A stretch of DNA of 64,000 nucleotides. Source: Reticulascus tulasneorum (lineage: Eukaryota > Ascomycota > Sordariomycetes > Glomerellales > Reticulascaceae). A program made the position numbers and the translations under genes. Numbering within the stretch: the stretch's first letter is position 1; each line of letters opens with the position of its first letter. The notes beneath the pieces are model-generated. The model was given only the letters and a program-made list of their open reading frames with translations. It was not told the origin of the DNA and made no database searches. The stretch is taken from positions 2,604,001 through 2,668,000 of the forward strand of contig LSAX01000005.1 in NCBI GenBank assembly GCA_001557505.1, in the 5' to 3' direction. Positions 4,161-9,886 of the stretch are shown here, in pieces.

Positions 4161-7100
4161 TTACCTAAATGTGTCTGCAAACGTTGGCTGCGGAAAGGTC
4201 ATTAGAGATGGTCGGTCGCCCGTTGGACGTTGTAGACGTGGGAGGTCGTCGCAATGCCTTGATTCCCCGTCTCGACCAGTCTGTGCGGTTCTTTCAGAAC
4301 GGAGCCACTTGGGCGCGTCCCATCCTCCTTCAGCGGCTGTCGACCTCAGACGATCAAGCCACCAATTTCGGGTTGAAAACAATGCAGCAGCAGACCAAAT
4401 GGGTATTGCAATCCCGAAAATTATGACGAAGAATAAAGAAAGGCTCAGATTGGATAACGGAGTGTCGACAACTGATGTACCAAGTAACAGAGGCATAAGG
4501 GCCTGCAACGTTTAGGATAAGTACATGTAGGGAGGGTTGAAGGATATTGGAAACACACAATAGTAAACCATGTTAGGGTTTTGACATCTTTTTTTACACT
4601 GACCCGGGTTGCAGTATCATTGTAGTTCGAGATGGAGAGATGGCGCTGTATCTGGAGACATTGAGCTTTAGCCGGCGGCATGGAGAGGGCAGACTCACTT
4701 GTTGGCTATAGTCTCGGAGCGAGCTATTCAGTTCTTCCAATCTGATTTGACAGACTTTCAGCTGATAGACGTCTTCACCAATGTACGAAAGCCTTCTATT
4801 CATTTCGGAGCTTTGACATTCTGAGAAATAATGGATATCTGTCGTCGCGAAGTTCTCAAACGCTCTTAGACTGCTTCCTAGTGTGCCACTTAAATGCTTC
4901 AAAAGTCTCTCCCTGCGGAAGATATGATGAAGAAGAATCTTCGTGCTTATCTCTGGCTTCGGCGGTAGATCAGAGGGCGAAGTCCAACTGTCCTGTCGCA
5001 CGGTTAGTCATTGGTCAACGCAAAATCAATAGAGCATTGGTTGCTACGAATTGTGGAACAGTGACAATAGCCCGCCTTCACTTGGAGAAGCAACTTGTTC
5101 TAATTGTTCAATCCAAATCATTAATAAGAGAAAGTCAAAACAACTCACAAATTCTACAACAGATTGACCTATCTTGTCAATTAAGTATCGCCACTCGGAT
5201 GTCATCTGACGGGTACGAGCCTGAAAAACCAGCAAGAAGTATTCTCTCGGTGACCAGATAGGAACATTGGCGTCGTACGTGCCACCTGTAAGAGGATCAA
5301 AATGAATATCCTCCCTGTCATATCGTTCAATGGTATCTGGTGTATCGGGATCGTTCTCATCAAAAAAGGTGTCAACTACCAGGTGTGCTGTCCACGTCCA
5401 ATCATCGAGACCTGACACTACGCATGAAACTTGAGCTTCATAAATAGTGCCAACAAGACAATCCTGGTTGTTTCGTAGAAAGCTAACATCTCGGGAGCAA
5501 CGGAGCGGTTTGCCGTCTGGACGTCGACGATTATCATGGCGTAATGACCTCTTGTCTCTCCAAACCAAAAATGGTATATGAAACTCGAGAGAAAAGTTAG
5601 AAAAATCATATCTTGGCTGGCTTATGTGTTAATATCTATATGCAAATCATTGTCTTATCAGTCACCGTACTTACGATGATTGAGACACCAATAGCTGACT
5701 CGAACTCCAGGTGCTTGTGAAAAAAGGAGCGCAGTTGCCTCACTTGCGACTGTGGCGCTGTGCAGACAAGTGCAAGTATGCTCCATTTATCTAAGTTTAT
5801 GATATATCTGTAAAAGTGAGTAAGTATAAAGCGATGGAATTTGGAATCTCACATTAAGCGACGCTCAGCGTCGGGAACGTTAGTAAGGAAATTCGACCAG
5901 ACTGTTTGGGAGGATGATGGTTGACTTTCAATTTGACAGTTGAATCTCTAGAGTATAAGTCAGTCCTATCCTTCATAAATAAGTCGAGCAAACATCTGAG
6001 ATCTGGACCAGCGCTTGCCGATTCTGCGTTTGATCCCAAGATCTGGTGAAGCCCTACCTTTTTCTTCAGCTCTCTGTAAAGCTCTCGAGCAGTTAATCCC
6101 CCTAAGTGAGTCCTGCGACCAAGTTTACTTCTGTCGTCTAGAAGAGCGACTTTTGGTCTTATATAAGAGCCATTCTCGAGATCACGTAGATTTGCTTCGA
6201 AACAGAAGTCCGCAACTTTCTCAGCCTGATGTCGTAACCACCTGTGATCTATTGATAGTTCGTTTCCGAGCAGGAAATCCCGAATATCAGAGTTGGGGTC
6301 TAAGGTTTGGAGCTGGCTAAGAAATGGGATATTTTCTATTTCAAAAGTGTGAGTGGGCCACTTGCGAAACGTGCTGGGCCATCTCGGAACCGACAGTGGG
6401 GTAGTCGGGACACTCTCCGTGCCTTCTGGAAATTCAATTCTTGATTTGGTTTCAGACTGATGGCACGAATATGATGGAGTCGGGTCCTGAGTCTGACATG
6501 CAACGCTGCAGTGTTGAGGGTCTGAGTCGTCGGGTACTGCCGGGATCTTTCGCAATCTAGCCTCCAAGAATTCCATCGCAGGCCTGTCGTTCTGCGCGAA
6601 AGCAATCTGTATATTGCTTCCCAGTAAATCTTCAACGTCATTGGAAATTTCATGAAAAGCAATGATGTAGGCAGTTCTGCTACCAGGAAAACCTCTGACA
6701 ACTTGGCCATACAAGTCGCCAGTGCTTTCATCCACGACCACTGCGCCACTGTCACCGTTCAACATAACACCGTCTAACTCAAGGGCGTAAAGCCTCTGGG
6801 CAGTGTGAGTTCTTGATTGACGAAGGAATGACGCCCCTGGTATGAGAGTTCCTTTTGTTACACCGGTGGAAGCGGTGACACAAACAACTCTTCTCTCCGC
6901 TTTCCCAATTCTGCCCATGCGCTGTATCTGAAGAGGATGGGAATTGTTGCTGTCTCGGAGGACGATTTGGTTTAGCGAATTCAAACCAGAAGGAACACCA
7001 ATCGAAATAAGTGCATAGTCCAGACTAGGATTCTTTCCGCTACTGGAGCGAACGGCAATAGGACCGGCTTTGGTCAGTTCTAACTGCGACGGGGTTGATT

Positions 7101-8013
7101 CCGTATCAAGACTCCACTGCTGGGATCTTGGCTCAGAGAGATTGGTTATTTCAGATATGCTTGATCTTGTAGACTTTGTTGGCGATTTCGATCGGCCACT
7201 TTCTGACTCTGTATCGGAACAGTCAGACTCAAAAGAATGGTCGGCGTCCGACAGATCGAGCAGAGACATGCTTGCTTTGCTGGTAATATCATGGGCTCGA
7301 GGAGTATTATAATCTTCTTCGTCGTCGCTCTGGCCGTCAAAAGAACACGCATCATGCTCGTCAGTCTCCGAAATTAGCAAAGCAGGCTCGTTGCGATTTG
7401 AGATATGCTCTACTGTAAGCTGATAGAATGTTTCCTGGACACGGAGCACAACTCCTCCAGTGGCGTAACGGAGATCTCGGTTATGTCCGGCCCCAGAAAC
7501 CGTCCAAAGGCGGCGCCCAATTTTTGGATCCGATATTTCAGTGAAAAATTCACCGTCGGCCCACTCATGCCAGAACTGGTTGAGGTTTGGATTAGAGTCA
7601 ATTTCTTCGAAGGACAACTCTATTGGGGAGCCTGGAACTTCCAACGGCACATTCAGGTCTCCGAGGCCAAACTCTGGATGATTCTTGAAGGTAAGGCTGT
7701 TTCGTAATGCTTGCTTTACTCGCTTCCTTACACGGCGACTAGAGCCGCATATCATAACGATCGGGTTCGCATCACCTTTATTTGTTCCAACCATGTAGGG
7801 TCGAACGTGTATTCCTGTGTCTTGGATATCCGCGTTGTTTAAAATATTCTCAACTTCCGGTTCAATCTTCTCGTCATATCTGGCAAGGACTGCACCTCGA
7901 GCCCACCATGCTCTTTTGCGCCCCAGCTTTGTCGTAGGTATTTCACTACCACACGACCCTTCTGGATCTGTGAACATAGGTTGCGCGCTTCCGTTCGGCA
8001 TGGTGCTGCCCAT
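4161..8013 (-). CDS. Trypsin-like protease / CorA-like membrane fusion protein
   Basis: Seven exons: 8013..6058, 5947..5853, 5807..5675, 5616..5149, 4992..4699, 4651..4559 and 4502..4161. All junctions are GT-AG and in phase, giving about 1126 residues. The start is the first ATG (8013); a longer open frame upstream has no ATG. Residues about 190-470 form a trypsin-like serine protease domain with a visible triad: His in LTVEHIS (about 203), Asp in SLDYALISIG (about 332) and Ser in NGDSGAVVV (about 422). A long acidic Ser-rich insert lies between His and Asp. The C-terminal part starts at PDAERRLIYI, continues through LALVCTAPQSQVRQLR, PRYDFSNFSLEFHIPF and WSPREYFLLV, then a helical region, and ends in hydrophobic segments. 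This is the pattern of fungal CorA-like transporter-domain proteins. The first intron (5948..6057) was placed because exon 1 otherwise runs out of frame just before the conserved block. Role is unknown; a membrane-acting cell-death or defence protein is an inference. Confidence 0.78.
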
Positions 8014-8764
8014 AAAAGAATAAAAGTAAATAAAAACCACCAAAGAGAATTCGACCAACTTGGCGACCTGCGACGGATAGACACGAAGGGGATGGGAGCA
8101 GGTTTTGCATGCAATACTTTGTGGAAAATGCAATTGTTGAAGGCGATTGAGCTCAGAAGACAGGTCGGCAAGGCGTTTTCCTTAGTACAAGGTTTCGCAG
8201 CCAACCGATGTCAAACACGTTGAATGTGGGTGCCAGACCTAGCGCATCTAAGACCCAACCGACATTTTGCTGTAGGCTCATTCACGCACAATGGACCACA
8301 CTGACCAATCTTTGCTGGCCTTGCGATACCATTCGAGGCAAAGTCCTGGATATGGCCATACCCTCCATCTTAAAGATGCCACCCAGATATGTTCCGTACC
8401 ATTGGCCCAAAGTGCAGAGTTTGTAATTACTATGCGGCCGCCTCTAGTGGGATAGGGATGTGCTCCAGATAAAGCAAGGCTGGCCACGAGTCCCGCCTCG
8501 CACGGTGCCCAACGAGAACCCAATAGCCTTCAGCTTGCCCAACCATGAGCCCAACACCTTTATTCTCACAATTCTGCAGGTGATGTGTCTAACATGATTG
8601 ACGGAATCCGCCCTACTAATATAGACGATTGGGTATGCTGCGGCGCACTAATTACCTAACCAATGCAGTGATTTCGAATCTGACTGAATTCGATATAAGG
8701 TACGAGTATCCCCTTTTAATCAGCAACGGTCAAGTGGCTTAATATCAAACTCCAATCCGTATTA
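8014..8764. other. Shared 5' region of two divergent genes
   Basis: A 751-base gap between the starts of the protease-CorA gene (minus strand) and the membrane protein at 8765 (plus strand). Both promoters must lie here, so co-regulation is possible. No conserved operator was recognised and the ORFs inside lack motifs. Confidence 0.5.
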
Positions 8765-9886
8765 ATGGAGACTGGCATTGAGCTGAGTGTACACAGAGGA
8801 GCCGCCGACCTTGTTAAATCGGTGAACTCACCGTGGCGTTCTTTCTCACACGAAACAAGACTCTTTAATGGTGAGAGTAATTCAAGCATGGGCTATCAGG
8901 CATATCGAAAATATTATCAACAACAATGGACACTACTGGCAGGTAATTCTGAGGGCAGGCTTGTTGCGCTGAAAACATGCCAACAAGTGAACCAACTTGT
9001 CTTCGAATTGCTAACTAACAAACCACGAGAGGAGATAATCAATAATCTAAAACAGAGGAGCGACGTTGAGGCTTCTGATGAGCAGTGGGAAAACACAATT
9101 AACCTTGCATCAAGACTTTCCGTCATGCTGAAGATTGGCAAGGTCAAATATCAAGCGGTACATCGTGGACATCTGATATGGGAGAAAGGATCTTTGCAGA
9201 AGTTCTTGAAAAGAACGTTCAAGCCGCAGGTTAAATTTCAATACAAACATATCAGGCTTCCTAAGAGTTTCAACGTGTGGAGCTTGGAAAGCATTGGTGG
9301 CATTGAGATTAACTTTACGGACAATCTGGCGGACCACCTCAGCGTCTTTGACACAGGCGAAGATGTTGTCAAGTTAGGGGTCCGCGTCTTTCATCATGCC
9401 TCTTTCCTGGAGACCCAACGATAGTTAGTATATGAGCCTTGTGAGGGTCCGAGGCGGATGGGTGTAACTGACGCGGCATGTAGTGCAAACTCGTTATTCC
9501 CCCCCGGACTTGTCGACGAAACATTACGAACTCTAGCATTGTTATTTCCACAGTTCGAAATAAAGGCCAGAAATCGCTGGTTCCGTGCATTGTGCACCAG
9601 ACAAGGCCACGAATCCGCAGGGATTGATGAACGCCTGGCAAAATGCGGCAACCTGCAAGCAGAAGACAGACAGATTGAGAGCTTCCACTTTTGGAGGGAC
9701 CGCCTTGTGCTCTTGAAGCAGGAATATGACGATGCTACACCTGGTAAATTGTCTCAATGGTGGCACGACAGGCGAAACGGTGTCCGATGGTACACGTTTT
9801 GGGTGGCGATATTGGTTCTCTTCATAACTACCATTCTAGGTGTGGTACAGTGTATTTTTAGTGGCTTTCAAGCTTTTAGAGAATGA
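8765..9886 (+). CDS. Fungal single-pass membrane protein, unknown function
   Basis: Two exons, 8765..9423 and 9484..9886, with a 60-base intron (GTTAGT donor, GTAACTGAC branch region, TGTAG acceptor), give 353 residues. Without splicing the first frame stops right after FLETQR; spliced, it continues smoothly as a conserved block ending LVDETLRTLALLFPQ. The C-terminal third contains CGNLQAEDRQIESFHFWRD and LSQWWHDRRNGVRWYTFW, followed by one hydrophobic segment of about 20 residues near the end. I recognise this as a widespread ascomycete hypothetical family of about 350 residues with a C-terminal membrane anchor, but know no assigned function. It is transcribed divergently from the protease-CorA gene, which hints at a shared pathway. 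Confidence 0.82.

Follow-up and report, generated by a model that had tools for sequence, protein, structure and literature searches.

A NAL1-like protease with a CorA-like C-terminal part and its head-to-head membrane partner in Reticulascus tulasneorum

The fusion gene and its protein

In the ascomycete Reticulascus tulasneorum, a minus-strand gene encodes a protease joined to a CorA-like membrane part, and a second gene, for a putative membrane protein, diverges from it head-to-head. The window, meaning the whole stretch of DNA analysed, comprises 64,000 nucleotides (LSAX01000005.1, here contig C17:2604001-2668000), and the genome searched for related loci has 42.8 Mb. The fusion gene starts with an ATG at 8013, within an open frame that spans 8181 to 5854, and has seven exons and six GT..AG introns. 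Its coding sequence is divisible by three, with an unbroken frame of 1126 amino acids.

6058..8013, minus strand: exon 1, one open frame with homology; N-terminal domain, entire protease, linker and the initial ~106 CorA-like residues
5853..5947, minus strand: exon 2, from gene model and homology
5675..5807, minus strand: exon 3, from gene model and homology
5149..5616, minus strand: exon 4, from gene model and homology
4699..4992, minus strand: exon 5, from gene model; of all joins its 5' one, placed in a variable region, is least certain
4559..4651, minus strand: exon 6, from gene model; the first transmembrane helix (TM1) begins here
4161..4502, minus strand: exon 7, from gene model; remainder of TM1, second transmembrane helix (TM2), tail and stop
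7633..7983, minus strand: N-terminal alpha/beta domain, residues ~11-127; kept in homologues, own model mostly confident, NAL1-like jointly with the protease
6589..7551, minus strand: chymotrypsin-fold protease, residues ~155-475; from triad, own model and structural matches
7405..7407, minus strand: catalytic His203, from triad alignment
7018..7020, minus strand: catalytic Asp332, from triad alignment
6748..6750, minus strand: nucleophile Ser422 in GDSG, from triad alignment
7021..7404, minus strand: insert, acidic and rich in Ser, that separates His from Asp; from composition; mostly with a predicted local distance difference test (pLDDT) score below 50
4161..6375, minus strand: CorA-like part, residues 547-1126, in exons 1-7; from homology and the fold of a homologue
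4377..4442, minus strand: TM2, residues ~1034-1055, from hydropathy

The first-pass annotation had described a protease/CorA-like fusion in one spliced gene. It was correct in detail on this point, but overlooked the divergent neighbour. Both joins that it proposed are crossed continuously in homologues: at 6058/5947 the window reads KKKRF and homologues read, for example, KKPRF or KEKRF, and at 5853/5807 the window reads AERRLIYI, next to AERRLIYI or ADRRVIYI. Because a simple pattern finds branch-point-like sites in just three of the six introns, the exon joins are supported mainly by homology. The stop at 5854 lies downstream of the conserved CorA-like start, so even a transcript stopping there would encode the protease with a partial CorA part. 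Judged from sequence and predicted fold, the joining of protease and CorA-like part is near certain.

The Pfam scan of the window protein named neither a protease nor a CorA domain, its sole match being a sub-threshold DUF2207_C, and the recognition of the domains therefore depends on relatives and structure. The same scan gave no HeLo match, and no NACHT or NB-ARC match at E up to 1. A His/Asp/Ser triad, already seen at first pass, is present in sequence order with the GDSG motif (His203, Asp332, Ser422), and neither the His nor the Asp varies among the window protein and 11 homologues. The long acidic Ser-rich insert was likewise rightly noticed; of its 127 residues, 20% are Asp/Glu and 30% are Ser/Thr. 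As the predicted structure contains a double beta-barrel fold, the domain is classed as an S1-type protease of clan PA, a predicted serine protease. Its structural matches include Deg/HtrA proteases and NAL1, and N-terminal domain and protease superpose on NAL1 as a single unit. NAL1 forms a hexamer and is subject to an effect of ATP. A simple hydropathy scan of the window protein found no strongly hydrophobic stretch upstream of residue 683, and hence no sign of a signal peptide. On sequence and model, the predicted product is a NAL1-like protease of S1 type, intracellular and extended at its C-terminus by the CorA-like part. In predicted structures a long linker of low confidence follows the protease.

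The CorA-like nature of the C-terminal block, as first proposed, is backed by sequence and by predicted fold, the fold being that of the full-length homologue P0001 in place of the spliced window protein. PF01544 scored above its cut-off in four of nine scanned stand-alone homologues and gave some match in eight, and the family profile matched solved CorA with an E of 3e-6. Two C-terminal membrane helices stand behind a long stalk helix, as indicated by hydropathy in the window protein and by the homologue model, where the membrane helices have lower confidence. GMN is the filter motif of CorA, and it is absent from the filter position of the window copy. There, 12 of 20 stand-alone relatives carry SMN or SMQ, and the window copy has neither. 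Two loci of the same genome (L016 and L017) hold stand-alone CorA-like paralogues.

Names among the 11 homologues include Thelonectria, Fusarium, Ilyonectria, Neocosmospora, Podospora and Xylariaceae. CorA-like sequence occurs in six of them (P0001, P0002, P0003, P0004, P0006 and P0008), and P0001 and P0002 are the only ones of these that, as annotated, reach both membrane helices. P0005 and P0007 seem to stop within the initial portion of the CorA-like part, and no CorA-like sequence was seen in P0009 (weak VWA match), P0010 or P0011 (coil-like matches).

The partner gene and the repeated pairing

The neighbour runs divergently from the fusion gene, on the plus strand at 8765-9886, and encodes 353 amino acids in two exons, with a single C-terminal membrane helix recognised by eye.

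8765..9423, plus strand: partner gene, exon 1, from open frame and family alignment
9484..9886, plus strand: partner gene, exon 2, from family alignment and intron ends; C-terminal membrane helix at ~9788-9859 (by eye)
8014..8764, no strand: gap of 751 bases between the divergent start codons

The genome was searched with the second part of this partner and its relative at L026, and all place counts from genome searches are lower bounds. There are at least nine protease-family places, and a partner stands head-to-head at six of them (the window, L013, L015, L026, L050 and L051), with 304-751 bases between start codons, each taken as the first plausible ATG. The partner-like places are likewise at least nine: the window, C2 0.849 Mb, C2 1.880 Mb, C17 0.232 Mb, C34 1.268 Mb, C25 0.040 Mb, and three without protease at C15 3.491 Mb (L024), C17 3.536 Mb (L025) and C35 0.034 Mb (L052). 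In a comparison of 16 loci with nine pieces of protease and eleven of partner, partner matches were confined to the five fetched pair loci and these last three. None appeared in L014, L062, L016 or L017, or in 3.1-3.5 kb around four ordinary Pfam trypsins. One of these trypsins (L002, C2 0.857 Mb) lies ~5 kb from the protease of L015 (C2 0.851 Mb), probably by coincidence.

The window partner shares 19-38% identity with the other partners. For the flanks, the comparison took in every frame of at least 60 amino acids, from the first 16 kb of the window and from 9-9.9 kb at each of the other five pair loci. Similarities below E 1e-3 lay in the pair genes or on their opposite strands, apart from one of 39 residues (E 4e-4) outside both. 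With partners this divergent, the order of the two genes has persisted although their surroundings are not alike. Duplication of one ancestral pair accounts for the origin of this arrangement, but not by itself for the pair staying together.

The five paired paralogues retain the partner, yet their loci contain no CorA-like part. The protease of L013 (3518-5899, minus strand) instead carries a C-terminal Transglut_core (49.1 bits, cut-off 23), and those of L015 and L051 have no recognised domain C-terminal of the protease. Since the proteases differ at the C-terminus (CorA-like, transglutaminase-like or none recognised) and the partner stays, protease and partner would form the core, and the CorA-like part a variable input or location domain. 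The partner-free protease-family places (three of nine) are two genes of L014 and one of L062, being catalytically dead, N-domain-only or HeLo-fused, which also makes the conserved unit look like a protease with a membrane partner. At L062 (3518-7348, minus strand) a single frame of 1276 amino acids carries the same N-terminal domain and protease (profile match, probability 98.8, E 5e-17, 403 columns), a middle that is kinase-like by eye but without Pfam match, and a HeLo match (32.8 bits, cut-off 23.2).

Several other copies show peculiarities. The first gene of L014 (3399-5693, plus strand) combines an F-box with the dead protease (His to Arg, Ser to Ala), and the adjoining gene (7392-9413, plus strand) matches in the N-terminal domain only, with finger-like Cys/His motifs further on, recognised by eye. 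In the paired paralogues of L013 and L015 (3093-5345, plus strand), as in homologue P0011, the nucleophile Ser is replaced by Cys (GDCG), with His and Asp retained; a Cys nucleophile would be uncommon for a cellular protease of chymotrypsin fold. Among the partner-like places without protease, L024 (near 4530-4820, minus strand; stop inside the match) and L052 (4092-4944, plus strand) hold apparent partner remnants with no protease match alongside, and L025 (4539-6109, minus strand) holds a distant partner-like gene near a gene that is STAND/TPR-like by eye, not near a protease.

Could this be an ordinary membrane-anchored housekeeping or quality-control protease without any link to cell death, and its neighbour simply co-regulated? 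Deg/HtrA and NAL1, both regulatory or quality-control enzymes, are among its structural matches. However, the paralogues are highly divergent and differ in architecture, one of them carrying a HeLo domain, which is untypical of a housekeeping enzyme and makes this explanation improbable.

A possible protease-and-membrane module

We read the locus as a two-gene module, in which a NAL1-like S1 protease with a CorA-like part acts together with a head-to-head membrane partner, and give this reading, including its mechanism, a probability of roughly 0.45. Sequence or predicted fold shows that protease and CorA-like part are fused, that the triad is intact, that the C-terminal part is related to CorA and that the divergent pairing recurs. 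The arrangement at six loci possibly points toward a signalling or cell-death module of protease and membrane protein, and from it we infer a function in cell death or nonself recognition. The protease would be kept inactive, with the acidic insert as candidate cause, until the C-terminal part senses a trigger or is brought to it. The CorA-like part may be the sensor, or may place the protease on the membrane. Once activated, the protease would cleave or otherwise act on the partner, which would then execute the output; a nonself or cell-death response directed at the membrane is its likeliest form.

The first-pass annotation had also proposed an activation module of protease and membrane domain. 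This idea gains from the fusion being kept in relatives, the missing sign of a signal peptide, the HeLo-fused paralogue and the close pairing, resembling that of fungal protease/gasdermin clusters, with the gene of another membrane protein. What is not supported as it was put is its form in cis, in which the protease cuts its own linker, so that the CorA-like domain is set free or opened and acts as a pore. Such self-cleavage would fit two domains retained in one protein among relatives, a long low-confidence linker behind the protease, and the CorA-family membrane effector of type III CRISPR immunity (excerpt of PMC10600005). It is nevertheless unlikely, as the five paired paralogues keep the partner without a CorA-like part, and the window copy lacks the SMN/SMQ motif. 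A target in trans is more economical, since the partner is kept at six loci whatever the C-terminus of the protease.

The combination of a constant protease with differing C-terminal parts would also suit an integrated bait, a CorA-like domain mimicking a real CorA-type protein, so that tampering by a parasite triggers the protease, which then acts on the partner. The degenerate filter motif and the stand-alone CorA-like paralogues agree with this, but we regard it as the least probable of the explanations.

Several observations weigh against the two-gene module itself. The HeLo paralogue does without a partner, and at an E of 0.01 the protease pieces gave no match in L024, L025 or L052 (about 9.5-9.9 kb each). 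As annotated, P0003, P0004, P0006 and P0008, four of the six homologues with the fusion, stop short of the second membrane helix. The partner protein is without Pfam match or clear relative among solved structures, and for this reason naming it substrate or executioner is guesswork. Pairing was examined in one genome only, where a single ancestral pair could have passed it on to the paralogues, and paired genes may have other roles, such as ordinary membrane signalling or shared regulation.

Relation to known systems

The closest parallels are HET-Q1/HET-Q2 and other fungal gasdermin-protease clusters, in which, as at the six loci here, a protease gene lies beside a membrane-acting partner, and the proteases are multidomain with varied architecture (excerpts of PMC12881547 and PMC10197012). 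According to the excerpt of PMC12881547, protease genes cluster with more than 80% of the gasdermin genes of fungi, and these encode mostly serine proteases and some CHAT, and the excerpt of PMC10197012 gives about 63% S8 and 19% CHAT. Where these excerpts describe mostly S8 or CHAT proteases with a gasdermin, the protease here is S1-type, and its partner, which carries its membrane helix at the C-terminus, matches no Pfam family.

HeLo-domain proteins, HET-S and its relatives, are connected through the paralogue at L062, which fuses HeLo to the same protease module, unlike the window protein without HeLo match. The HeLo domain of HET-S permeabilises membranes (excerpt of PMC12881547).

With rice NARROW LEAF 1 (NAL1), the window protease shares 14-15% identity in the aligned rows, and NAL1 is not known to carry a CorA domain. 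From the pentameric CorA Mg2+ channels, which have the same soluble domain, long stalk helix and two C-terminal membrane helices, the window copy differs by its N-terminal protease and the missing filter-position motif. The CRISPR-associated CorA effector is likewise a CorA-family membrane protein serving immunity, but it is bacterial and binds SAM-AMP, and the excerpt of PMC10600005 mentions phosphodiesterase fusions in some and no protease fusion.

The S1-type protease, the partner and the CorA fusion were not found described in the literature searched. A bolder and rather doubtful view is that of a gasdermin-independent fungal immune or allorecognition module, in which a NAL1-like intracellular S1 protease (with a Cys nucleophile in some paralogues) would be divergently paired with a dedicated executioner, anchored in the membrane by its tail, and would have its trigger set by an exchangeable C-terminal domain. 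Here, a whole CorA-type channel would be the trigger or output, making a protease-gated ion channel. The gene pair is directly testable by experiment. Fungal two-gene protease/pore modules in the reviews, as excerpted, mostly pair S8 or CHAT proteases with gasdermins; next to these, a third protease class with a different membrane partner and a CorA-type channel, and with a HeLo-fused paralogue, would broaden the fungal toolkit for regulated death or nonself recognition.
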